From: Eubacterium sp.
GTDB taxonomy: Bacteria; Bacillota; Clostridia; Lachnospirales; Lachnospiraceae
Assembly: GCA_024681515.1 (NCBI GenBank)
Contig: JAILAR010000189.1
Location: 1 to 52,879, forward strand
Direction of reading: 5' to 3'
Length of the DNA: 52,879 nt
A program made the position numbers and the translations under genes. Under the pieces are notes generated by a model. That model did no database searches, was not told the origin of the DNA, and was given only the letters and a program-made list of their open reading frames with translations. Positions 779 to 52,812 of the stretch are shown in pieces (position 1 is the first letter of the stretch; each line of letters opens with the position of its first letter).

Positions 779-876
779 GATATCTACCTCTCGCTACGGT
801 CTGTATGTGTATTTCTCACGAATCCACACACAATTCCGTTGCCAATCAATACCCCGCACCAAAAGTGCTTATTCAA

Positions 877-898
877 CACTTCGCACCAGGTGCTCCGT
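877..898 (-). repeat. Short hairpin copy of the SD-proximal repeat family (divergent)
   Basis: On the minus strand this reads ACGGAGCACC then TGGTGCGAAGTG. It keeps the flanks ACGGAGC and GCGAAGTG of the copies near 21.2, 22.1 and 52.6 kb, but the stem is GCAC/GTGC and the loop is CTG. It lies in the leader of the response-regulator gene, about 100 bases before its start codon, and in the direction of transcription. Only the short hairpin is recognisable; the long stem is not clear. Confidence 0.5.
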
Positions 899-914
899 TA
901 CAAATACCTCTATA

Positions 915-8681: not shown

Positions 8682-11600
8682 TTACTTCTTGCTACTCTTC
8701 TTCAGTTTCCTCTTCTTCGTTCCGACCACCGTAGCGCCTGCCAGGGACAGTGCCATAAGGCCTGCCACCGGAAGGAGCGGTGTGTCATCGCTTGTCTTCG
8801 GAACATCCGGAGGTGTCTCCGGCGGAAGTTCTTCGTCGATCATGGAAACCTTGATCACGCGGCCTTCATCCGGTCCGACTTCGTCATTCGATACCGTGAA
8901 GCTTACGGGACCTGCCAGTGCATAGCCTGCCGGCGCCTTCACTTCTACCAGACGATAGGTATGTCCTACGATCAGCTTACCGCTGATCTCCGTCTCTGCT
9001 TCTCCGGTCACCCACTCGGGGATGATAACATTTCCGTCCTCATCTTCCACACGAAGGGTTGCGCCTGCCAGCAGCTTGCCGTCCTTGGTGATCTTGGTGA
9101 TCTTTGCAACGACTACCGGCTCCAGCCAGGTTACATTGCCGTTTGCATCGATCGTCACGGTACCGTCGCCGTTATCCACCGAAGCGTTATCGATAATCAC
9201 AACAGGTTCTCCCTGTTCGTCTGTATCCACCTTGAAGGTGATACGTACGGTGTTCTTTGATACATAGTAGCCGTCCGGTGAGGTCATCTCCTTAAGGCTG
9301 TATTTCTTGCCCGGAAGCACGCCCTCGAACTTCACCTTACCGTCTTTGCCCGTGGTCCTCTGAGCGATCATCGTTACGCTTCCGTCGCCGGATTCCACAA
9401 AGAGTGCATAGGTGGAGCCTTCCAGCGTCCGGGTCGGCTCATCCTCACTCACCTTGGTGAATTCCAGATCCGCGCGCAGCGGCTCATTGATGATCCGGTT
9501 CTTTTCCAGCGGCGTTCCGTCTTCGGTCGTGATCTCGGATACCGTTCCGTTTGCGATGGTCACGTAGTATACCGTGTCATCCAATACATACTCCTCCGGG
9601 CAGTGCACTTCCCATATCTTATAGGTGCCGGCCGGCATCGGCAGGAATTCTACCAAACCGTTCTCATTGCTCTGTGCATAGTAGACCACATTGTCATAGA
9701 CGACATTTTCTGCCTGGAAGACCACGCCCTTCAGCGGTCGGATCTCGTCTGCCAGCGGACTGCAAAGCTCATTTACATAGCCATACTTGGTGAAATGAAC
9801 CACACCCTCATCAGCTTTGTAATCATCCGCAAAGTCCACTCTGGTCTGCTCGGTACTGCTGATCACAATGTTCGTTGCGGTCGCGCCCTCTTCTTCCGGA
9901 CCCGCCATGATCTGATGGGTTACGGTTTCCAGAATCGCTCCGTCCACATCGTAATCGGTCTCGGTCACTGTGTAGATGTCACCCGGTCTTGCTTCGATCT
10001 CATAGCTGTATACGCCTGTGGTCTGATCGAAATCAAATTGTGTCAGGTTGACAACCACACTGTCACCTGTGGTTTCATTTGTGATGGTGAACTCCAGCTG
10101 TCCTGCTGCTTCTTCCGGTGTCACATCACCCTTGATGGTCTTGGTGATCAGCAGGCTGCCCTTCTTATAGGTATCCTCGTAAGCGGCTACGGTCTCCTGA
10201 CCGACGGCCACTTCCTCTGTGAGCATGGAGTAAACTCCGTTTGTCTTGTCCAGTGCGACTGCATTTGCTGTTACGCTTTCCAGGATCGCGCCGTCCACAT
10301 CGTAGATCACTTCGGATACCACATACTTCTGTCCTGCCGGAACTGTCAGTTCCAGCTCATAGATATCCCCATTCTTTGTGAAATCATTCGCAAGGATCAG
10401 GTTCTCCATGCGCTTGCCGTCAATTACCAGTACATCTCCGGCCTCGTCCGTGATGGTGAACTGCAGCTGACCCGCAGCCTCCTCCGGTGTCACATCGCCT
10501 TTGATGGTCTTGGTGATCTTCAGGGTGCCTTCATTCTTCGTGTTCGTGAACTCGGCTTCTGCCTGGTCTACGCTGATGGCTCCGGTATCGCCGGATGCCG
10601 TCGTGATGAATTCAGCATCATCCTGCTCCGTAACCGTATACTGCACGGTTGTCGGAAGTCCGGTTGCTGTCTTTGACTCTCCGTCCTTCAGTGTGAACGT
10701 AGCCACACCGTTTGTAAAGGTCATGTCTCCGTAGGTTCCGCTGATGGTAGTATCACTCAGTGTAACCGTAAATGTAAAGTTCTTCTGCTTATCCGCAGCC
10801 ACGTTACTTACAACCGTCTTGGAAACCTTCAGATCTCCTGTGTCGCGGGTATTTGTAAATTCTGCCTCTGACTTCTGCGTCTCACTGATGGTTCCGGTAT
10901 CACCGGTCTTTCCGGTATTGGTAAAGCCGGTTACCGATACTTCCGTTACCGTATAGCCAACGCCCACCGGCAGACCAACGGCCGTCTTCTGTTCGCCGCC
11001 CTTCAGAACTATGGTGGCAACACCCTGATCAAAGGTCATCTCACCGTAGGTTCCGGTAATGGTCGCATCATCCAATGTGACTGTAAAGGTGAATTCCTGA
11101 TCTGCATCTGCTGCCAGATCCGAAATGAGTTCCTTGGAAACCTCCAGGTCACCGGTCTTCCGGGTGTTTGTAAATGCTGCCGTCTGGGCCGTATCTCCGA
11201 TAGTCCCGGTCTCACCGGTCTTCGTTGTCACAAAGAGATTATCCGCATCCTCTGTTACGGTATAGCCGATACCCTTGGCAAGTCCGGTTGCGGTCTTTGA
11301 CTCTCCGTCCTTCAATGTGAACGTAGCCACACCGTTCGTAAAGGTCATATCGCCATAGGTTCCGTTTACGGTATTGTCGTCCAGTGTTACCGTGAAGCGG
11401 AACTCTTTCAGATGATCTGCCGAAGCATCCGATACCACCGTCTTCGAAACGATCAGTCCGCCTTCATCCTTCGTGTTTGTGAATTCCGCTTCGGCCTCTG
11501 TCGTTGAAATATCTCCCGTACTTCCGGTGGACGCAGTAACGAATGCTGCATCCGCCTGTTCCGTAACCGTATACTGCACGGTTGTCGGAAGTCCCTCCGC

Positions 11601-14600
11601 GGTCCTGGATTCCCCGTCCTTCAGTGTGAACGTAGCCACACCGTTTGTAAAGGTCATTTCTCCATAGGTTCCGCTGATAGTTGTATCACTCAGTGTAACC
11701 GTGAAAGTAAAGTTAATTTGCTTATCCGAAGCAGTACTGCTGACAACCGTCTTGGAAACCTTCAGATTTCCGGTTTCACGGGTATTCGTAAAGACTGCCT
11801 CTGACCTTTGGGCCTCGCTGATGATTCCGGCTTCACCGGTCTTGCCTGTGTTGACGAATCCGTCTGCCGAGGCCTCTGTTATCGTATAGCCGACGCCCTC
11901 CGGAAGTCCGACAGCCGTCTTCTGCTCGCCGCCCTTCAGAACTACGGTAGCAACGCCCTGATCAAAGGTCATATCACCGTAAGTTCCGCTGATGGCCGCA
12001 TCATCCAATGTAACCGTAAAGGTAAATACCTGATCCGCATCTGCTGCCAGATCCGATACGAGTACCTTGGAAAGCTTCAGATCTCCCTTTTTCTCTTTAA
12101 TGTTATTAAATGTGATTCCCACACCGTTTGCATAGGGCACGGTCTCCGTACCTGCGGCTGTGGTCTTCTCCACCTTCGTCACATTTGCAACGAGCTTGGA
12201 AGCGTCATTTGTATCCTGCGCCACGGTTACGGTCACGGTAAACTCCGTTCCGTCCGTTGCGATCTCCGGCATACCCACTACCGCACCCTCAGTGATCTTG
12301 TAGGTATGTACCGCAGGCTCCGTGTAGGAAATGGTATCGAAGCTGACTGCATTTGCCGCATTGGTCTTCGTCTGTGCTGCCGTCAGCTTATCCGCCACAT
12401 TGCCGGTCGTGGTCTCTTCCAGCGTAAATGAGAACTTGGAATCATAGTCGCTGCCTGCGGTTACCGCAGTTCCGTTCACGTTCTTGAAAGCCTTGAGGGC
12501 GATGCCGCCTTCCAGCTTCTTATAGGTATTGGTCAGTGTAACCTCTGCGGTTCCTCCCTTTGTAACCGCCACATTCTCCTTTGTGATCGTGGAGTTTGCC
12601 TCATCGATCACCAGATTGTAGGTGGCAAAAAGTCCGTCCGCATTCGTTTCCGTTATCTTGTAATCATTAGCCAGTGGGAGTCCGGAAACCGTATAGCCCT
12701 GATGTCCCGTAGAGAGCTTAATGTACAAATCCTTCCAGGTAAAGGTCGCGTAAACCGTATCCCCACGCTTTACCTGGAACGTCAGGTCAAATTTCGCGTT
12801 GTTCGGAATCGACACATCGCTCGGAACGACAAAGTCCTTCTTTACCAGAATGGAACCCGTCTTCAGGGTGTTCGTAATGGTATAGGCCGCATCCACAGTG
12901 GTATCCTGCGCCGCTGCCGGATTACCTGCGGTGTAGTTTACCTGGATCGCCGTCTTTGTAGCGGTGGTCTCTTCCACACTGTAGGTAATAGCATTCAGAT
13001 CCGCGTCATATTTGTCCAGACCTGTCCATGTGTAGGTCCAGCTGTTGGCATCGTTTAAGGTTACAGCCGCACCCACATTCGATGCTGCGGCTGCGCCGGT
13101 CGCCTTGCCCTTCAGCTGAACATCCACACTTGCCGGGCGAAGGCTGTACTTATCGTCCTGGTCATCCCAGATCTTCGTTACCTTCAGGCTGGTCTTCGGC
13201 ATATCATAGCTGTTGGTTACCGTTACCTTCGTTGTACCGTCATTGGCCAGGGTTCCGCTGTATCCGGGTGAAACTGCCGCATTGTCATATGTAAAGCCCT
13301 TTGCGATCAGCGTTCGGTTCTCGGTCTCCGTTACCAGATACTCGGTTCCACGGGGCAGACCGCTGATCTTTGCGGATTCACCGTCTGCCAGAGAAATGGT
13401 TCCTGCATCATTTGTCAGATTGATCACACGGTTTTCCGTGGTGCCGTCTGCCTTGGTTATAGCAGCCGTAACGGAAGCCGGAATCGTCTTTCCTGTCGGT
13501 GCCGACAGCACGAAGTCGATGGGGAAGGTCTGTGCCTTCACAGTCGCTTCCACAGCCGTACCTGCAACCGCTGTAGTATCCAGCTTCTTCTCAAACGTAA
13601 AGCTTGTCTTCGGCTCGTCCTTGGTATTCGGGAAACGCGCCGGAATATCACTGGATTTTTCAATGATATTGCCTTCCGCATCATGGGTGAAAACGACCTT
13701 ATAGTAATTGTCGTCGATCACGTACTGCGGATCCGGAACTGCCGTCTCCTTGATGTAGAACGTGGTATCTCCGGTCGGTGCAACCGTCAGATCTGCAAAG
13801 GATACGATACCCTGCGCGTCAGAGGTTGCCGTAATGCCGAGAGAAGTCTTGCTTTCATCGTAAAGCGTAAACTCCGCACCTGCCAGAGGCTCATCATTTT
13901 CATTTACCTTTGTAAAGTAAATGTTCGGTTTATAGTTACGGATCTTCAGGATATCGCCGTCCACATACTCAAACCGGGTATAGTCCGGATCGGTTCCTTC
14001 GATCAGCATGAACTGATACCAGGTCTCATCGATCATGTAGCCTGCCGGAGCTTTCACTTCCTTCAGGTAGTACACGTTCTTATAGGTATCATCCGACGAC
14101 ATGAAATCCACATCGTACTGACTGATCACTGCGATACCGTTCTGATTCGTGGTGATCACCACATCCTCTGTGGAGGCGCCCATTGATGAGCCTTCCTTCC
14201 ACTTCATCGGGTTCTTATTTGCATCATACATCTTGAAGGATGCACCCTGCAGTTTCTTCTGCAGGTTGCCGTCTTCATATTTGAAGATGTTCAGGTGCCG
14301 GATGGAACCGGTTCCGCCGGCATCCGCCTTCACTTTAAAGCTCTTTGTGGAAACCGCCAGATGTCCTGCGGTCTCAAATTCGTTGCGTACAGTCAGCTTG
14401 CCGTCTGAACCTGCTTCACCGGAAACCCGGGAACTGTAGGTCATGGTCACCGGAGTAGCATCCGGGATATTATAAATTGTCAGTACATTTCCTTTTGCAT
14501 CGCTGGTGATCCCTGCATCCGCCGGATCAAAGCTGATGGTGGTATAGTTGATGGCCAGATTCGTGAAGGTATCCGTAGCCGTCATGGGATCACCGTTATT

Positions 14601-16994
14601 CAGCGTAAGACCAAGAGGATTGATCACCACCTGATACTGTGCGGTTGCGGAATGCAGGCTCACGCCTTCTCCCGTCTCCGGGAACTGTTCCGGATTCGTC
14701 AGTGTCTTTGTGATCGGTGCGTACTCGAAATCAAAATCCAGATCATCCGATACTTCACCCACCTTTGCGGTGTTCTTCAGCGTGATCTTATCATGACCGG
14801 TATCCGCCACACGCTGTGCCAGACGTCGATATGCGCCGGTACTCTTTACTTTCAGTGCGTATGTGATCCTGTAATGGGTGTTCGAACCATAGATATAACT
14901 CTGATCCAGAGACATACGGAAAGAACCCCCTCCGGTGGAAATATCACCGGGCAGGATGGCTGTCTCGTTATCGCCCTGATAATACTGACTTCCGCTGTAA
15001 ATGCGAGGTGCATATGCATAGCTTGTGTCTGTGGTAACCAGTTCCAGTTCCGGATCAAAGGTATCCTCCAGGATCAGCGGAACCGTGGGGTTTGCAACAA
15101 TGACCTCAAACTTGTAGACCGGATAACCGGAGCCGTCCGCTGCTTTGCCTGCCGATTTCTTCTCGATGGTAGGCGGAACCACCTTTGCGGTTGCTGAAGT
15201 CCGTCCGGTCTGATTTCCGGATCTGATCTCCGCGGTATTGTTGTGATCCTGCATCCACGTTTCGGTAGCGGATTTTGCCACCCATTCATCGCTGATCACG
15301 GTCTTATACTCGAACTCGACAGTCTGATCCGTGCCTGTGGTATTTGCAATACCGTCCGGGAATGAAATAACGAACTTCTTCTGATCCGCATCCTCAGCCA
15401 CCGAATAATTCAGCGCTCCGCCGGTGGAATTTGAAAGCAATGAGAGGCTTCCGGGAACCAGATGTTCCACAACCTCGGTGCCGTCTATCCAGTTCGTCGG
15501 AACGGAATCCGTAATCGTTGTATTGACTCCCAGGCCTGCCTTCGGAACCGCAACGATCAGCTTCCAGGTGATCTCCTTATTGACAGTATCTACGTCTGAT
15601 GCAGATTTCGTCAGGCTGAGCGCCTCCGGCCCTACCGTGATACCGGTGGTCCCTTTGTGACCTCTGCCATCTTCGATGGTATTATTAATCGTCTTGTTCG
15701 CTGTCATCTCTGTAGCAGGGACAGTTACTTCATAGGTAATGACATACTTGTACGGAGTGGTATCATTCAGCTGATAGGTCCACTTTGTATCGGAAAGCGT
15801 TGCAGGAGACACCTCTTCTTCGGAAACAAGTGCTCCGTTTTTTCCGTACCTTGCGATATTCAGCTTCAGATCTGCCGGATAGGTGATCCCTGTTCCGTCG
15901 ATGATATCCGTCAGCGTCACTCCGTTCATGGGAACGATGCAGTAATCGTTGTAATTTACCGTATAAGTGATGGTCTTGCTTCCGTCCGCATTCAGACTGG
16001 AGGAAGACGCACTCTTCCCAAGGTTCGCATAGGTGATCTTGTTCTGCAGATTGTACGGAACCGGATCCGGGTCCGGATCTTCATTACTGGTCACATCAAC
16101 CGTATTTCCGGTCTCTGTACCGGTACCCTCTCCGGAAACCTGAGAATAATCGATATCCACGGAATAATTAATGACCACACTCTGCCCGTCCGTCATGGTG
16201 GGGATGGTGATATCAAAACCGCCCGCCGTCACATTCGAAGTAACGGAGCCTGAATAGTCCGCTCCGCCGGATGTGATGGAATCAATGGTAAGCCCGGTAA
16301 ATGCCGTGCCCGTCAGGGTGTCCTTCACCTTTACATTGTTGTTGGTCCGCTTGGAATTCACGGTTACGGTGAAATGTGCCTTGCCGTCATCCGTAGAATA
16401 GAAACCGGTCTTTGCAACCGTCACCTTGGATTCGGTATCGTACTGTACCGGAATCTTCACGTTATTTCCGAAGTCCAGTTCATTCAGGCCTTCGTCAAAC
16501 TGCACGTCAAAATCCAGATAAAACTTCACATTTCGGGAATCCCGAAGGGAAGCATCCTCTGCGAAGGTTCCGGTGATCTCATAATGATCACCCACAAGTG
16601 TCGGTGCATATGTGGTGCCGTCGATACTCTGACTGTCATTGATCAGGATCGTGAGCGGAGAATGCACCTGGGTGATCTTTACACCCGCCGGAAATGCATA
16701 AGTAAAGGTGCGGTTGTCCGGATCCATGTGGAACTGAACATTTCCCGCATCACTTTCCGCAAAATTCACATGCATTCCATAGGTCTTCTCCGAGTCGATC
16801 AGCCACGCCACATCCTTCGGCGTGCTGCTGCCGGCCTCATACAGATCGACCCCTCTCAGAAAACTCGTGATGTCATTGTCCGCTGCATATACATCATTCC
16901 GGGAGATGGAACCCGTCCCCGGAAGGATCAGCGAAATGACCATCAGAGCCGCGAGTATGATTGCCAATACCCGCCTTTCTCGCTTTCTCTCCAT
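8682..16994 (-). CDS. Giant sortase-anchored multidomain surface adhesin
   Basis: About 2770 residues. Signal peptide (LAIILAALMVISLILPGTGS), N-terminal adhesin-like beta domains, then repeated isopeptide-type modules. SpaA/Cna-B-like domains include LNIFKYEDGNLQKKLQGASF and NENDEPLAGAEFTLYD; a Cna-B unit starts SLKVTKIWDDQDDKYSLRP. A pilin-type domain begins near GGIALKAFKNVNGTAV. Five units of about 103 residues (DNA about 12.09 to 10.53 kb) start G-x-L-x-V-S-K and end EFTNT, followed by two related longer units and three more SpaA-like domains. The C-terminus has the sorting signal VPKTSDD, a hydrophobic helix and KKRKLKK. The frame extends to 17012, but AGGAGG before the ATG at 16994 favours that start. 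The role is presumably adhesion to host or partner cells; no ligand can be inferred and no sortase lies nearby. Confidence 0.9.
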   Translation of the reverse strand: MERKRERRVLAIILAALMVISLILPGTGSISRNDVYAADNDITSFLRGVDLYEAGSSTPKDVAWLIDSEKTYGMHVNFAESDAGNVQFHMDPDNRTFTYAFPAGVKITQVHSPLTILINDSQSIDGTTYAPTLVGDHYEITGTFAEDASLRDSRNVKFYLDFDVQFDEGLNELDFGNNVKIPVQYDTESKVTVAKTGFYSTDDGKAHFTVTVNSKRTNNNVKVKDTLTGTAFTGLTIDSITSGGADYSGSVTSNVTAGGFDITIPTMTDGQSVVINYSVDIDYSQVSGEGTGTETGNTVDVTSNEDPDPDPVPYNLQNKITYANLGKSASSSSLNADGSKTITYTVNYNDYCIVPMNGVTLTDIIDGTGITYPADLKLNIARYGKNGALVSEEEVSPATLSDTKWTYQLNDTTPYKYVITYEVTVPATEMTANKTINNTIEDGRGHKGTTGITVGPEALSLTKSASDVDTVNKEITWKLIVAVPKAGLGVNTTITDSVPTNWIDGTEVVEHLVPGSLSLLSNSTGGALNYSVAEDADQKKFVISFPDGIANTTGTDQTVEFEYKTVISDEWVAKSATETWMQDHNNTAEIRSGNQTGRTSATAKVVPPTIEKKSAGKAADGSGYPVYKFEVIVANPTVPLILEDTFDPELELVTTDTSYAYAPRIYSGSQYYQGDNETAILPGDISTGGGSFRMSLDQSYIYGSNTHYRITYALKVKSTGAYRRLAQRVADTGHDKITLKNTAKVGEVSDDLDFDFEYAPITKTLTNPEQFPETGEGVSLHSATAQYQVVINPLGLTLNNGDPMTATDTFTNLAINYTTISFDPADAGITSDAKGNVLTIYNIPDATPVTMTYSSRVSGEAGSDGKLTVRNEFETAGHLAVSTKSFKVKADAGGTGSIRHLNIFKYEDGNLQKKLQGASFKMYDANKNPMKWKEGSSMGASTEDVVITTNQNGIAVISQYDVDFMSSDDTYKNVYYLKEVKAPAGYMIDETWYQFMLIEGTDPDYTRFEYVDGDILKIRNYKPNIYFTKVNENDEPLAGAEFTLYDESKTSLGITATSDAQGIVSFADLTVAPTGDTTFYIKETAVPDPQYVIDDNYYKVVFTHDAEGNIIEKSSDIPARFPNTKDEPKTSFTFEKKLDTTAVAGTAVEATVKAQTFPIDFVLSAPTGKTIPASVTAAITKADGTTENRVINLTNDAGTISLADGESAKISGLPRGTEYLVTETENRTLIAKGFTYDNAAVSPGYSGTLANDGTTKVTVTNSYDMPKTSLKVTKIWDDQDDKYSLRPASVDVQLKGKATGAAAASNVGAAVTLNDANSWTYTWTGLDKYDADLNAITYSVEETTATKTAIQVNYTAGNPAAAQDTTVDAAYTITNTLKTGSILVKKDFVVPSDVSIPNNAKFDLTFQVKRGDTVYATFTWKDLYIKLSTGHQGYTVSGLPLANDYKITETNADGLFATYNLVIDEANSTITKENVAVTKGGTAEVTLTNTYKKLEGGIALKAFKNVNGTAVTAGSDYDSKFSFTLEETTTGNVADKLTAAQTKTNAANAVSFDTISYTEPAVHTYKITEGAVVGMPEIATDGTEFTVTVTVAQDTNDASKLVANVTKVEKTTAAGTETVPYANGVGITFNNIKEKKGDLKLSKVLVSDLAADADQVFTFTVTLDDAAISGTYGDMTFDQGVATVVLKGGEQKTAVGLPEGVGYTITEASADGFVNTGKTGEAGIISEAQRSEAVFTNTRETGNLKVSKTVVSSTASDKQINFTFTVTLSDTTISGTYGEMTFTNGVATFTLKDGESRTAEGLPTTVQYTVTEQADAAFVTASTGSTGDISTTEAEAEFTNTKDEGGLIVSKTVVSDASADHLKEFRFTVTLDDNTVNGTYGDMTFTNGVATFTLKDGESKTATGLAKGIGYTVTEDADNLFVTTKTGETGTIGDTAQTAAFTNTRKTGDLEVSKELISDLAADADQEFTFTVTLDDATITGTYGEMTFDQGVATIVLKGGEQKTAVGLPVGVGYTVTEVSVTGFTNTGKTGDTGTISETQKSEAEFTNTRDTGDLKVSKTVVSNVAADKQKNFTFTVTLSDTTISGTYGDMTFTNGVATFTLKDGESKTATGLPTTVQYTVTEQDDAEFITTASGDTGAISVDQAEAEFTNTKNEGTLKITKTIKGDVTPEEAAGQLQFTITDEAGDVLVIDGKRMENLILANDFTKNGDIYELELTVPAGQKYVVSEVIYDVDGAILESVTANAVALDKTNGVYSMLTEEVAVGQETVAAYEDTYKKGSLLITKTIKGDVTPEEAAGQLEFTITNETTGDSVVVNLTQFDFDQTTGVYSYEIEARPGDIYTVTETDYDVDGAILETVTHQIMAGPEEEGATATNIVISSTEQTRVDFADDYKADEGVVHFTKYGYVNELCSPLADEIRPLKGVVFQAENVVYDNVVYYAQSNENGLVEFLPMPAGTYKIWEVHCPEEYVLDDTVYYVTIANGTVSEITTEDGTPLEKNRIINEPLRADLEFTKVSEDEPTRTLEGSTYALFVESGDGSVTMIAQRTTGKDGKVKFEGVLPGKKYSLKEMTSPDGYYVSKNTVRITFKVDTDEQGEPVVIIDNASVDNGDGTVTIDANGNVTWLEPVVVAKITKITKDGKLLAGATLRVEDEDGNVIIPEWVTGEAETEISGKLIVGHTYRLVEVKAPAGYALAGPVSFTVSNDEVGPDEGRVIKVSMIDEELPPETPPDVPKTSDDTPLLPVAGLMALSLAGATVVGTKKRKLKKSSKK

Positions 16995-17035
16995 ACTTTC
17001 TTTCCTCCTCATTTACAAAAGGATATAGATAAATT

Positions 17036-18807: not shown

Positions 18808-18830
18808 GTCTTTATGTCCTTTCTGTTTCA

Positions 18831-18975
18831 CACTTCGCGCCTCAACGCTCCGTTTATACACCATGCCGGCTTGGTCGATTCGGCGCATAACGCGTGATCG
18901 TGCCTGCCGGCTTGGTCGATTCGAAACGCGAGCGTTGCACACCGTGCTGCAGCGTCCACCGGCACGCTGCGCCTG
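18831..18975 (-). repeat. Mosaic intergenic repeat upstream of licD
   Basis: It contains a divergent short hairpin of the SD-proximal family (minus strand ACGGAGCG TTGA GGCGCGAAGTG, from plus-strand 18831-18853) and two copies of TGCCGGCTTGGTCGATTCG (plus strand, 18864-18882 and 18905-18923). The same motif recurs at about 49614-49633. Additional GC-rich dyads (GCGTGCCGGTG / CACGC-like) occupy the rest. The element ends about ten bases before the licD SD. Confidence 0.7.
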
Positions 18976-19776: not shown

Positions 19777-19868
19777 TGAAGGGATACTTCGCCGTCAAAG
19801 ACGGCTCAGAATGACAAACTGATCTGTCATTTCGTGTCACACGAAGTGTGACAAAGAATCCCTTTACT
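19777..19868 (-). repeat. Copy of the GTCATTCTGAG...GAAG-ATCC dispersed repeat
   Basis: On the minus strand GTCATTCTGAGCCGTC, TTTGACGGCGAAG and TATCCC, with outer arms AAGGGAT / ATCCCTT and an extra dyad GTCACACTTCG / CGAAGTGTGAC-like (plus-strand 19839-19853). It resembles the elements at 26868-26935 and 35879-35960. It is a palindromic intergenic element without coding signs, located between the ATP-grasp and SDR genes. Confidence 0.65.
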
Positions 19869-19890: not shown

Positions 19891-21180
19891 TCACAGTTCC
19901 AGCGCTTTGTCTACGTCAAATCCCTTCAGACAGAGATCCTCTCCGGCCTCATTATATACATGCACCGTGGCCATATAATGCTTCAGACGTTCAGCCAGCT
20001 GTTCCTTCGTATCACATACCAGATACATCCGTGTCAGAACCTGCTTTTCATTTCCGATCCACTCATGTAATACCGTGTCGCCTTCATGCAGGCGCTGGAT
20101 ATTTGCGATGGCGCAGGGATCCTGCTCCCAGGCATCCAGGCCCTCGATCTTCGCGATCTTCCCTTCCTTCAGCAGGAACCAGAGGGTTGCCGCACTCTTT
20201 CCGCGCAGATAGGTATCGTCATCCTTCGCCAGATCCACATCTCCCTCCGAACCGGTGAGCGCAAAACGGATCAGCATTTCTCTCTGATCAAATCCGTGGA
20301 TCTCCTTCATCAGCAGATGAGGTGCCTCACCCTGCAGACGGAAGCCGGTGTCATACACATAGAACTCTCCGTTTTCAAAAAATCCGGACAGCATCAGGAT
20401 ACCGTTCTTGATTCCGATCTCTTTGAACATGCGGACCGCATTTTCATGCATCCGGCTGAAATATTCGTCCAAATGCTTTGACGGATAGGTTCCGCCCAGG
20501 CAGACACGGGACAGACCCGGCTGCTCATCCGTGGTGTACCGGTCATAGATACAGGATGCGGAGCAGTATCCGTCCTTAAATGTATAATACATGCCCATGT
20601 CCTCACACTGCATGTATTTCTCTACGATAAAACGCTTTTTGTGGGAAGCATCCAGCGCCACGCGAACGCCTTCCCGAAGCTCCTCTTCGTTATAAGCCAC
20701 GGTCATGCCTACGCCGCCGCCGTTGTCCACCGGCTTCACCATGACAGGATAAACGATCTTATCCAGATCTTCCCGCTTCATGTCCGCATCCAGATAGAAT
20801 TCCGGAATGCCGTGCACACCGTAACGCTCACAGGTGGTCTTGAACACATCCTTGAAGGCAAATACATCCACGATCTGCTGCGTCGCATAGCAGGGCAGAT
20901 TCAGGGCCTCACAGACCTTACAGTAGGACGGAACCAGAATATCCGCAACGCCCACCAGGACGCCGTCCACCTTCTCTTCGTTTGCCAGAGCCACCAGACC
21001 CGGCACATCCATACCATCCACATCGTAGGCCTTCCATGCAGCCTTCTTCGCCGGGTCGGTATGCCGCCCCGATGAGACGATGGTCTTCACTCCCATGCTG
21101 TTGGCGATCTCAACCAGCGGGGTCGTCTCGGGGTTTCCTCCGAGGATCAGAAGTTTCTTTCCTTCAAATTCGCGTTCCAT
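19891..21180 (-). CDS. ATP-grasp domain ligase
   Basis: 429 residues with the carbamoyl-phosphate-synthase-like ATP-grasp layout: an N-terminal preATP-grasp domain (KKLLILGGNPETTPLVEIA), lid and ATP-binding region (YPVMVKPVDNGGGVGMTVAY, then FIVEKYMQ) and a metal-binding region (YVYDTGFRLQGEAPHLL). These enzymes activate a carboxylate as acyl phosphate and join it to an amine or other nucleophile. The exact acid is not predictable. Related ATP-grasp genes are common in capsule and teichoic-acid clusters. The ATG follows AGGAGGAATAT directly after a copy of the structured repeat (21193-21335). Neighbours are the MBL-fold gene upstream and the SDR gene downstream. Confidence 0.87.
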   Translation of the reverse strand: MEREFEGKKLLILGGNPETTPLVEIANSMGVKTIVSSGRHTDPAKKAAWKAYDVDGMDVPGLVALANEEKVDGVLVGVADILVPSYCKVCEALNLPCYATQQIVDVFAFKDVFKTTCERYGVHGIPEFYLDADMKREDLDKIVYPVMVKPVDNGGGVGMTVAYNEEELREGVRVALDASHKKRFIVEKYMQCEDMGMYYTFKDGYCSASCIYDRYTTDEQPGLSRVCLGGTYPSKHLDEYFSRMHENAVRMFKEIGIKNGILMLSGFFENGEFYVYDTGFRLQGEAPHLLMKEIHGFDQREMLIRFALTGSEGDVDLAKDDDTYLRGKSAATLWFLLKEGKIAKIEGLDAWEQDPCAIANIQRLHEGDTVLHEWIGNEKQVLTRMYLVCDTKEQLAERLKHYMATVHVYNEAGEDLCLKGFDVDKALEL

Positions 21181-21192
21181 ATATTCCTCCTA

Positions 21193-21335
21193 TTCCATAC
21201 TTCGCGCCTTCCGGCGCTCCGTAACGAATCATGTCGCACGTATTTTTCTGATCATTTGCTTTATTTCACGTTATCAGTCCGTGCTCCATGATTCTTGTTT
21301 CCATACTTCGCGCCTTCCGGCGCTCCGTGTAAACA
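21193..21335 (-). repeat. SD-proximal structured repeat, about 1.3 units
   Basis: Unit start points at 21193 and 21299 are 106 bp apart (TTCCATACTTCG on the plus strand). On the minus strand one full unit shows arms AATCATG-GA-GCACG and CGTGC-GA-CATGATT enclosing a variable loop region. A short hairpin follows: GGAGCGCC, GGAA loop, GGCGCGAAG. The element ends five bases before the AGGAGG of the ATP-grasp gene. Confidence 0.85.
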
Positions 21336-22100
21336 TTACAAAATGATTCCTTCGCCCTGCTGCATCAGGTAGCAGGACAGATTCTTCTCCTGCATGATGT
21401 CATAGAACTTTCCGACATCGCCGTGATGGCTGGCAAACATGCCATAATGACAGGGGATGGTCATTCGCGGACGGATCAGTTCCGCCAGCTGCGGAAGATC
21501 TTCTTCATTCATATTTCCGTAGGCTCCGTTGATGGGGCCGATCAGCACATCCAGATCTCTGGGCAGAGAAATGGCCCGATCCAGCCGGAGGCAGGTATCA
21601 CCGGCCTCATAGACCTTCTTTCCGTCAACGGTAACGATAACACCCACCGCGTCCGGTGCACCTGTGCCGTGGTCACAGTCCACGAAGTCGATCCGGAAGC
21701 TTCCCACATTTACAGAATCCTTCGGAGCCACATAGGTGATCTGCTCGTTATAATATTCCAGACCGAGCTTTTGAACCAGTTTCTCACAGTCAACGGAACA
21801 TAGCAGTTTCGTCCTGTGATTCGCGATCAGTGCCGGAACTGCATCCACGTCAAAATGATCCAGATGGGGATGCGTACAGATCACGGCGTCAAATTCCAGT
21901 TCATCCGGAAGAAGGATCTGCGGAAGCAATCGGCGAAATCCACGGTTTCCTTCCAGGCGTTCCACGCACTCCGAAAGATACAGGTCGATGGCCAGCAGTT
22001 CACCCGCTGCGCTCTTCAGGATAAAGCCCGCCTGTCCGGCGGAGAATAAATGTGTTTTCCCCAAAGGGGCCGTAAGGACCTTCTGTGCAAGTCGTAGCAT
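21336..22100 (-). CDS. Metallo-beta-lactamase-fold hydrolase (UlaG-like)
   Basis: 254 residues. The signature THPHLDHFD gives the HxHxDH metal motif, and later metal ligands appear in DCDHGTGAP, YEAGDTCL and PCHYGMF. The architecture is like UlaG (L-ascorbate-6-phosphate lactonase) and related phosphosugar or phosphodiester hydrolases. The frame is open to 22151, but the ATG at 22100 follows GGAGGAAGAAAT, while the longer version would read through an intergenic repeat. It sits second in the GT2-MBL-ATP-grasp-SDR-LicD series. A role in opening a lactone or trimming a precursor of the surface polymer is possible but not shown. Confidence 0.88.
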   Translation of the reverse strand: MLRLAQKVLTAPLGKTHLFSAGQAGFILKSAAGELLAIDLYLSECVERLEGNRGFRRLLPQILLPDELEFDAVICTHPHLDHFDVDAVPALIANHRTKLLCSVDCEKLVQKLGLEYYNEQITYVAPKDSVNVGSFRIDFVDCDHGTGAPDAVGVIVTVDGKKVYEAGDTCLRLDRAISLPRDLDVLIGPINGAYGNMNEEDLPQLAELIRPRMTIPCHYGMFASHHGDVGKFYDIMQEKNLSCYLMQQGEGIIL

Positions 22101-22113
22101 ATTTCTTCCTCCA

Positions 22114-22316
22114 TTCCATACTTCGCGCTTACGCGCTCCGTAACGAATCATGTCGCACGTAATTCCTGACCATCTGCTTTACACTTTCAATACAGTCCGT
22201 GCTCCATGATTCTTGTTTCCATACTTCGCGCTTACGCGCTCCGTAACGAATCATGTCGCACGTAATTCCTGACCATCTGCTTTACACTTTCGATACAGTC
22301 CGTGCTCCTTAATTTC
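22114..22316 (-). repeat. SD-proximal structured repeat, two tandem 103-bp units
   Basis: Two units begin at 22114 and 22217. The complete overlap differs by a single base in the compared inner part (TTTCAATAC against TTTCGATAC). On the minus strand each shows AATCATG-GA-GCACG (the first unit read has AAGGA-GCACG) pairing with CGTGC-GA-CATGATT, then the hairpin GGAGCGC-GTAA-GCGCGAAG and TATGGAA. The downstream end abuts the SD (GGAGG) of the MBL-fold gene. Confidence 0.88.
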
Positions 22317-49132: not shown

Positions 49133-49552
49133 CTACGCCGTCTGACGGCAAGCCTCACAGATCCCGTAAAAAACGGTACGGAGCGGATCCAGCTGAAAAC
49201 CATGATGTTCCATCAGATGCTCCCGGATCCCGGCAAGCGCCTCGCAGTTCATGTGGATCAGTTTTCCGCATTTCTCACATTTACAGTGGAAACAGGTTCC
49301 CTGCAAATGGCTTTCCTCCGGTACATATTCAAAACAGGCCGGGCTGTTCGCGTCGATGACATACTTCTGCACCAGACCTTCATCCACCATACGCTCCATC
49401 TGCCGATATACCGTAGTCTGCCCGATGGATACGCCCTGCCGATGCAGATAATCGCACACATCGGTCACAGTGATATGCTTTCCCGGCACGGTCTTCATAT
49501 AGTCCAGCAGCTGCGTTCGCTGCTTTGTCTTATAATTCGGTTTTGCTGTCAT
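49133..49552 (-). CDS. Fur-family metalloregulator
   Basis: 139 residues. The winged-helix DNA-binding part reads RTQLLDYMKTVPGKHITVTDV and QTTVYRQMERMVDEGLVQKY. The dimerisation domain has two CxxC pairs (CEKC and CEAC) for structural zinc, and HHGF near the C-terminus. It is a repressor using Fe, Zn or Mn. Coupling to a zinc-type binding protein favours a Zur role, but Fur or PerR cannot be excluded. An upstream start (ATG at 49582 or 49573 after GGAGAGGGAGG) would add a few residues; 49552 has GGAG six bases before. Three 7-1-7 palindromes 230-310 bases upstream suggest autoregulation. Confidence 0.9.
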   Translation of the reverse strand: MTAKPNYKTKQRTQLLDYMKTVPGKHITVTDVCDYLHRQGVSIGQTTVYRQMERMVDEGLVQKYVIDANSPACFEYVPEESHLQGTCFHCKCEKCGKLIHMNCEALAGIREHLMEHHGFQLDPLRTVFYGICEACRQTA

Positions 49553-49596
49553 GGTACTCTCCACCCCTTTCATATGAGCCATGCCTCCCTCTCCGG

Positions 49597-49760
49597 ATAC
49601 TTCGTTTCGCGCCTGCCGGCTTGGTCGACTCGGCGCTTGACGCACGCCACCGGCGTGCAGCGCACCGGAGATGTCGCGGCATTCGCCGTATATATCCGCA
49701 TCGATATTGCTGTGCTCGGGAGCAAGCTCCCGCACAGCAAATCTCGCGTCTATGCACGGC
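49597..49760 (-). repeat. Mosaic GC-rich hairpin repeats in the fur leader
   Basis: In minus-strand order: a hairpin TGCTGTGC-G-GGAGC / GCTCCC-GA-GCACAGCA; the dyad GCACGCC-GGT-GGCGTGC; and AGCGCC / GGCGCGAA arms around TCGACCAAGCCGGC, followed by GAAGTATCC and the SD. The CGACCAAGCCGGC module also occurs twice upstream of licD. It is a divergent copy of the SD-proximal repeat family. Confidence 0.65.
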
Positions 49761-49778
49761 TCATTACTCGCGCAAAAT

Positions 49779-49866
49779 GAAAACCGTTTTCATTTTTAAT
49801 CTGAAAACGGTTTTCATTTTATACTCTTCTGATTCAATTGTCAATAGAAAATGAAAATAATTTTCA
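49779..49866 (-). promoter_or_regulatory. Three Fur-type palindromes flanking the fur-znuA promoter
   Basis: TGAAAACCGTTTTCA (about 49779-49793), TGAAAACGGTTTTCA (about 49802-49816) and TGAAAATAATTTTCA (49852-49866), all 7-1-7 palindromes of the Fur-box class with extended AAAATGAAAA flanks. A promoter on the minus strand lies between: TTGACA (49839-49844), 17 bases, TAAAAT (49816-49821). One box lies at or just upstream of the -35 and two at or beyond the -10, the geometry of tight metal-dependent repression. Confidence 0.85.
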
Positions 49867-49890
49867 TTTTTGTTTTATCTTCATTTCCGC

Positions 49891-51330: not shown

Positions 51331-51345
51331 TTATATAACCTTTCT

Positions 51346-51386
51346 ATTCCACACTTCGCGACCAAAGGCGCTCCGTGAAATCATCA
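51346..51386 (-). repeat. SD-proximal repeat copy between the DJ-1-like gene and murF
   Basis: Minus strand: TGCGCGAAGTGATGATTTC then ACGGAGCGCC, TTT, GGTCGCGAAGTGTGGAATAG. The first part matches the end of the long stem of the 52.6-kb copies (GTGCGAAGCGATAATCT) and includes the last codons and stop of the DJ-1-like gene. The short hairpin is imperfect here. It ends five bases before the murF SD. Confidence 0.65.
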
Positions 51387-52538: not shown

Positions 52539-52602
52539 ATATAATACCTCTCCAGCCTTCGCTGCCTTTGCGCCCGCCCATTGATGGCGGGCACAAACCA
52601 TC

Positions 52603-52812
52603 CCATTCCATACTTCGCGCCTTTCGGCGCTCCGTAGATTATCGCTTCGCACGTGAATTCCAATTTCACGCTTTTATCTTTCGTTCGAGTCCGTGCTTTG
52701 CGATAATCCATTCCATACTTCGCGCCTTTCGGCGCTCCGTAGATTATCGCTTCGCACGTGAATTCCAATTTCACGCTTTTATCTTTCGTTCGAGTCCGTG
52801 CTTTGCGATAAT
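52603..52812 (-). repeat. SD-proximal structured repeat, two identical 105-bp units
   Basis: Units at 52603-52707 and 52708-52812 are identical on inspection. On the minus strand: ATTATCGC-AAA-GCACG pairs with CGTGC-GAA-GCGATAAT across an A-rich loop region; then CTACGGAGCGCC-GAAA-GGCGCGAAG and TATGG. The outer arms differ from those of the 21.2 and 22.1 kb copies but stay complementary. The 105-base length keeps a frame open through both copies. Confidence 0.92.

Follow-up and report, generated by a model that had tools for sequence, protein, structure and literature searches.

A modular hairpin repeat lying mostly flush with Shine-Dalgarno sequences in a gut Eubacterium

Hairpin repeats in the window

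The 52,879-nucleotide stretch of DNA analysed here, called the window throughout, is contig C5 of a gut bacterium of the genus Eubacterium whose genome (G000) comprises 3.13 Mb in 197 contigs. Upstream of several of its genes lies a repeat which, read in gene orientation on the minus strand of the window, consists of a long hairpin (LH), a short hairpin (SH), a tail and, as a rule, the Shine-Dalgarno sequence (SD). The LH runs in the order arm, GA or AGA, GCACG or GCGCG, apical part, CGUGC or CGCGC, GA or GAA, arm; its apical part of about 38 nt is variable and holds a conserved GACU and AAAG. The SH runs in the order UAC or CAC, GGA, GCGC, a stable loop, GCGC, GAA, GUA or GUG, with a purine 3x3 internal loop (GGA.GAA), and on its 3' side stands a conserved, almost invariant and unpaired UGGAAU tail, followed by the gene's own SD. 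GGA motifs are repeated and conserved within the element. The modules are optional: there may be one or two units of about 100 nt, each an LH of the same design placed 5' of the SH, and the units are set apart by the tail, which serves as a direct repeat. The GA/GA and 3x3 purine internal loops reported in the preliminary description of this DNA are as described there.

Two models were searched, one of the full unit (R1) and one of the short hairpin (R2); both contain the SD columns as well as the structure, which biases selection toward intact, SD-adjacent copies. The window holds five full units by R1 (E values from 3.6e-27 to 2.8e-18) and, by R2, seven strong (5e-15 to 2.4e-10) and two weak short hairpins, all on the minus strand. 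The main features are the following.

861..905, minus: degenerate SH some 80 nt 5' of a response-regulator gene, away from its SD (R2, 22.9 bits, E 0.0005)
18815..18860, minus: degenerate SH before licD (R2, 25.7 bits, E 8.5e-05)
21185..21300, minus: full unit (LH and SH) directly 5' of the SD of the ATP-grasp gene (R1, 115.7 bits, E 3.6e-27)
21186..21196, minus: tail GGAAT (21192-21196) and SD AGGAGG (21186-21191); the ATP-grasp gene that they precede has its start codon at 21180 (read from the sequence)
21288..21335, minus: extra SH upstream of the ATP-grasp unit (R2, 45.9 bits, E 2.4e-10)
22106..22218, minus: gene-proximal unit before the beta-lactamase-superfamily gene (R1, 112.6 bits, E 2.1e-26)
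22108..22117, minus: tail GGAAT (22113-22117) and SD GGAGG (22108-22112) of the beta-lactamase-superfamily gene, start codon at 22100 (read from the sequence)
22219..22316, minus: distal unit of the tandem pair of the beta-lactamase-superfamily gene (R1, 80.1 bits, E 2.8e-18)
51336..51383, minus: SH with a non-GNRA loop before the Mur ligase gene (R2, 51.5 bits, E 6.4e-12; gene by Pfam)
52598..52712, minus: gene-proximal unit upstream of the CYTH gene, about 60 nt from its start codon (R1, 114.6 bits, E 6.7e-27)
52713..52812, minus: second unit of the CYTH tandem pair (R1, 96.1 bits, E 2.9e-22)

The elements previously placed at 21.19, 22.11 (two units), 51.35 and 52.60 kb (two units) were all recovered by the models, and those at 18.83 and 0.88 kb were found too, both as weak matches. 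A further copy had been proposed at 49.6 kb; that stretch scored E 1.3 with R1, was absent from the R2 matches up to E 5, and was rejected as a member of the family. It carries a different repeat, GTCGACCAAGCCGGCA, which accounts for the false copy. The genes downstream of the window copies encode, by Pfam, LicD, ATP-grasp-type, beta-lactamase-superfamily, Mur ligase and CYTH proteins, in agreement with the genes first named, except that fur adjoins only the rejected stretch. The distance of about 60 bases first given for the CYTH copy holds when measured to the start codon. The two units before the beta-lactamase-superfamily gene are 97% identical over 98 nt, and the CYTH tandem pair is an exact 105-bp repeat (100% identity, 52603-52812), a sign of very recent unit gain.

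Several other features of the window were recorded in passing. The GTCGACCAAGCCGGCA repeat lies at 18864-18973 and at about 49600-49650, and several genomes of the same genus contain matches to the 18.86-18.97 kb stretch. Three near-perfect palindromes, ATGAAAANNNTTTTCAT, lie at 49777-49867, immediately 5' of the FUR-family gene (minus strand, 49133-49735; Pfam); the mean in shuffled sequence is 0.34 and one of 100 shuffles reaches three. The palindromes are likely to be the operator of the FUR-family regulator. A 2776-aa open frame at 8682-17012 has internal repeats of about 300 nt at 10580-11812 and perhaps encodes a large repetitive surface protein. At about 19.8 kb (19780-19860) there is a further hairpin repeat, CATTCTGAGCC..GGCGAAGTATCC, which belongs to a repeat of this genus that can be described as CATTCTGAGC..GCGAAGAATCC. 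It has the core GAGC....GCGAAG (GA opposite GA beside a GC stem) in common with the present family and differs from that family in its arms; a long related copy, L126:9301-9409, is matched many times in the same-genus genome G035. We found no family record for the GAGC..GCGAAG repeat, nor was it found in print when searched by its letters.

Structure and covariation

In order to assess the predicted fold, 25 copies from the own genome were aligned and analysed with RNAalifold, which gave 19 pairs, nine of them with double changes. In the full structure 95.0% of stem cells were paired, compared with 84.5% (sd 0.9) in shuffles, and 57 cells were double-changed, compared with 20.4 (sd 3.3). The covariation score of 0.300 (shuffles 0.122, sd 0.012) was reached in none of 500 shuffles, and versions of the structure slid along the alignment had at most 52.8% of cells paired and 10 double-changed. 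The outer arm of the LH showed double changes in seven of its eight pairs; this arm lies outside the regular expression that picked the copies, while the BLAST search leading to the stretches used the whole element. The covariation first proposed is therefore real in these 25 copies.

A second set of 50 short hairpins, 13 of them from four other genomes, had 97.1% of cells paired (shuffled 90.1, sd 0.7), and the pair at the foot of the SH was C-G in 24 and U-A in 21. Two of the five measures did not rise above the shuffles in this set: the number of pairs with a double change was reached in 171 of 500 shuffles, and that of further pair types in 204. A structure formed on the sense strand would predict an excess of G-U over A-C. 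Full units displayed such an excess (40 versus 21, p=0.02, 71 distinct rows) and the SH did not (15 versus 16, 119 rows).

The loop of the SH had been said always to fit GNRA, which is wrong: only 56 of 104 own-genome copies (of 115, see below) have a GNRA loop, the next most common being UUA (16) and CUUG (4). Two window copies also depart from GNRA, the one at 51.35 kb and, judged by eye, the one at 18.83 kb. A subfamily on C191 (L015:1931-2145) has an LH right arm, ATACTTC, complementary to the SH arm GAAGTAT, and an alternative pairing is possible there.

Copy number, placement and history

Across the own genome, R1 gave 149 full-unit matches at E<=0.01 among the best 150 candidates scored, a number that is not due to chance, and R2 gave at least 150 SH matches. 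Twenty places that we read occur among the R2 matches only; the two sets thus differ and the true copy number is higher. Outside this genome, four genomes of the same genus carry a few copies each. Five of 61 genomes matched R1 (own, G019, G017, G002 and G036, with two to eight matches in each of the other four), and four of 40 matched R2 (own, G019 with 14, G017 with 7 and G002 with 4, G036 being outside the 40). No R2 match at E<=1e-4 was found in 391 other genomes of the order, under strict filters that scored the best 15 candidates from each. When 84,980 species genomes were scanned for an exact pattern, a scan possibly blind to records of the own genome, the pattern matched only an uncultured Lachnospiraceae metagenome-assembled genome, CAMPAX01 (three contigs), which is not additional to G019. 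The exact pattern did not match any viral contig, and a distant blastn search with one tandem copy as query returned no phage or plasmid. A phage or plasmid vehicle was rejected on these results.

Gene context was read for 120 of the 149 R1 matches, the other 29 falling outside the examined stretches. The next gene was on the same strand in 113 and on the opposite strand in four; two copies lay inside a called ORF and one had no gene. By arrangement, 99 were tandem sense, one tandem antisense, 11 divergent and three convergent, and the rest lay inside an ORF or without a neighbor. The distance from the end of the model, SD columns included, to the start codon was most often 2-10 nt, and in some copies it exceeded 100 nt; start codons were taken from a simple purpose-made caller with visible errors. 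Five of the 120 copies lacked an SH detectable by the regular expression. In the remaining 115, an SD motif stood within 14 nt of GGAAT in 94; among 91 copies in which the offset was measured, 53 had the motif directly after GGAAT (offset 0). Several of the 21 copies without a motif in that range have an SD slightly farther away, an immediate start codon, or another unit. An ORF of at least 91 aa started within 24 nt after 19 of 20 SH hand-picked from the at least 150 R2 matches as occurring in that set only (longest frame taken, no control). The repeat had been described as lying near the SD of the next gene, which stands for most copies; the copy at 861..905 is an exception. The copies are nearly all in one orientation, and they lie mostly flush with gene starts. 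An apparent excess of downstream genes of about 530 aa was rejected as an artefact of stretch length.

Some individual copies bear on where the element sits in the transcript. The copy at C42:9895 lies between a TTAGCACTC-N9-GAGTGCTAA palindrome, which we take to be a CIRCE operator, and the SD, so that this copy at least should be in a 5' untranslated region. A copy at C66:3258 (L117) precedes a gene with a non-ATG start, presumably infC from its appearance; translation of infC depends on initiation conditions.

The same sites were then compared with relatives. Read by eye in eight to 10 relatives per site, the counterparts of the sites at 18.8, 21.2 and 22.1 kb contain no element, and the orthologs of the ATP-grasp gene have a purine-rich SD region and no element. 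For six genes (panD, a second gene on C46, an ABC gene, a gene on C42, tgt and queF, of which panD, tgt and queF are presumed names from the look of their sequences) and eight relatives, all 27 usable orthologous upstream regions lack the element, and in the same 27 a purine-rich ribosome-binding region still precedes the same start codon; one own leader and its counterpart in a relative read GTATGGAATAGGAGGATAAAACCATGG and AGAAAAAGGAGGACAAAACCATGG. These 27 are what remains of 30 relative rows after removal of L246, L266 and L269, which were misplaced because a contig end truncated the locus. The loci of the putative aat gene, C142:29101 and the putative rnhB gene (both names presumed from the look of the sequence) gave no relative row, and the rnhB part has weaker matches. 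Since element-free relatives keep the ribosome-binding region, the SD was most likely there first.

Whole units come and go. Compared with G019, the own genome carries an additional 104-bp unit at C182, with a copy of AGGCGCGAAGTATGGAA on either side of it and flanks that are 91% and 97% identical by BLAST; G019 may represent the state before an insertion or after a deletion. At two further sites the LH parts are lost or degenerate and the SH is retained, and G019 has tandem arrays of the SH alone. One dispersed pair, C44:2115 and C34:50802, is 99.1% identical over 114 bp within unrelated flanks. The other dispersed pairs listed reach at most about 90% over the element, which indicates that activity was not one recent burst. 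Three loci that share the element between two carriers are mostly 91-98% identical, with one piece at 83%, which is above the identity of these two relatives over the window region (78-87%, apart from two pieces of less than 50 bp at 92% and 95%). Interspecies recombination may therefore have carried some of the copies. At least one pair has dispersed recently and both copies and units turn over, and by these comparisons the family is young. Dispersal, as proposed earlier, is supported by the lineage restriction, the element-free sites, the 99.1% pair and the presence or absence of whole units.

Explanations and related repeat families

The structure with its covariation and the sense placement, mostly at SD sites that are element-free in relatives, are the observations to be explained. 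We consider it somewhat better than an even chance that the repeat is a structured leader or intercistronic module that was seeded by copying, is kept in sense at SD sites, and probably helps expression modestly. A copying process would seed new copies in leaders or intercistronic regions, and those retained would mainly be sense copies whose end abuts the SD. Transcribed within the leader or intercistronic RNA, the element would act as a hairpin complete in itself, with the SD left free; hairpin and tail would be compatible with the initiation of translation or with protection of the mRNA that follows, and would probably help one or the other modestly. The predicted probability that the SD is unpaired, a thermodynamic estimate for 85 of the 115 copies, was 0.609 in the native sequence, 0.597 with the hairpin shuffled and 0.608 with it deleted. 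Masking or opening of the SD by simple folding was rejected on this prediction and we make no claim of either, which leaves a modest influence on initiation or on 5'-side decay, or else a neutral element that is strictly purged at other places. Antisense copies are nearly absent from tandem gene pairs, where a neutral repeat would be expected to be tolerated, and this is our main reason for preferring retention at the RNA level or targeted arrival. The first reading of the element was that it is mobile, cis-acting, or both, and most of the findings named in advance as refuting this did not turn up: the stems covary, four of 120 copies face a gene on the other strand, most copies lie at gene starts, and Rfam gave no match. 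Dispersal has support, while an effect on translation or stability is something we infer, with predicted SD accessibility unchanged.

A bolder possibility, on which we are doubtful, is that the element homes to ribosome-binding sites, being copied one-way 5' of the existing SDs of scores of unrelated genes through recognition of initiation sites or mRNA and not of a DNA target alone. If so, the leaders of a large part of the genome would have been rewired with a portable RNA hairpin.

On the whole unlikely is a selfish MITE- or REP-like DNA element whose machinery favors GGAG-type targets, the SD placement being a by-product combined with loss of harmful insertions and the RNA having no function. 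Recent dispersal, lineage restriction and tandem units with direct repeats would fit such an element, as would the GGAAT tail lying flush with a GGAG-type motif in many copies. However, only 138 of 350 intergenic GGAG motifs outside elements are a called SD, whereas 55 of 64 element-adjacent ones have a called start nearby (Fisher p=2.3e-12), and inspection of the other nine, among them one before an infC-like gene, showed a plausible start codon for each; sequence alone therefore does not explain placement. Nor did the expected machinery come to light. Reverse transcriptase (PF00078) is absent from G000, G017, G019 and G036 and present in five of 12 genomes, including the carrier G002; a retroelement product was rejected on its absence from the own genome. 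Clustering of 428 called genes from 81 stretches gave no transposase-like cluster among the neighbors, the largest cluster having five members that look like response regulators, and an autonomous copy or a transposase beside the copies was rejected accordingly. The ends, too, are direct and not inverted repeats: the C182 unit has AGGCGCGAAGTATGGAA at both ends, this direct repeat is the element's own, and the inverted repeats are the internal hairpins. At the sites compared with relatives no target duplication was seen by eye, the upstream flanks being too diverged to fix the 5' end.

A cis-regulatory RNA, such as a riboswitch or protein-binding leader, that makes the approximately 150 genes one regulon under a trans-acting factor appears improbable. 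Structure, sense orientation and SD adjacency speak for such a leader, as do the repeated GGA motifs and the almost invariant unpaired UGGAAU tail. The downstream proteins look functionally unrelated by eye (Pfam was applied to the window genes only), though, the orthologs of close relatives do without the element, and no SD masking is predicted. CsrA, the obvious candidate for GGA binding, is absent from 12 genomes (PF02599, positive in three of 14 control genomes), and a CsrA regulon was rejected. Rfam returned only a tRNA for the window at gathering scores and no match for six loci with copies at E up to 1, so a known Rfam RNA or riboswitch was rejected as well.

REP-type palindromes mobilized by a RAYT are disfavored and most improbable, as the variable outer arms, mismatched internal loop, GC inner stem and high copy number that resemble them are set against a RAYT (Y1_Tnp) content of a single truncated 33-aa fragment at a contig end in G000, none in the carriers G017, G019 and G036, and 11 in G002, which has only four SH copies, and against a consensus without a GTAG tag at the hairpin foot, where UGGAAU after the 3' arm is conserved instead. 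Of the marks of a known REP or MITE, the GTAG tag and terminal inverted repeats are absent.

Repetitive elements are not usually placed directly before an SD, and from this position the repeat could tune the translation of the genes that follow. With about 150 or more leaders carrying the same module in one genome and element-free orthologs in sister species, the genome amounts to a natural library in which the co-option of repeats as expression modules is directly testable. It also raises the question of how copying to translation start sites proceeds where inverted termini, a complete RAYT or a reverse transcriptase were not found. Our literature search, with subscription journals mostly outside its reach, returned no paper on an SD-flush, sense-only repeat family.

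Its kin are the small structured interspersed repeats, although by the tests above it is not filed as a REP, a MITE, a known riboswitch or a CsrA target. In the parts of the sources that we draw on, the nearest functional analogue is BOX of Streptococcus pneumoniae, which is modular with variable internal units, is predicted to form RNA stem-loops, and can sit in transcribed leaders and affect the next gene (PMC3049150). The likeness, in architecture only, is that of a small, modular, RNA-folding, leader-compatible element. BOX, RUP and SPRITE are reported there as over-represented between convergent genes, and the distance from BOX to the nearest gene as a decaying distribution (PMC3049150), whereas the present repeat is rarely convergent (three of 120) and mostly SD-flush in sense. 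The bcr repeats of the Bacillus cereus group are likewise lineage-specific and intergenic, some MITE-like and some with conserved secondary structure; some are transcribed in 5' untranslated regions or inside operons, and also in 3' untranslated regions and gene-free transcripts, and bcr3 correlates with longer mRNA half-life (PMC3446304). They resemble our family as lineage-specific structured intergenic repeats and differ in that the parts of that paper drawn on here describe no SD-flush, sense-only rule. The GTAG and CGTC REP palindromes associated with RAYTs are, as far as the portion of PMC3733652 used here goes, high-copy small palindromes of several families; the hairpin repeat differs from them in that it lacks a GTAG tag, three of its four other carriers are without a RAYT, its tandem units run in the same direction, and it is placed at the SD.
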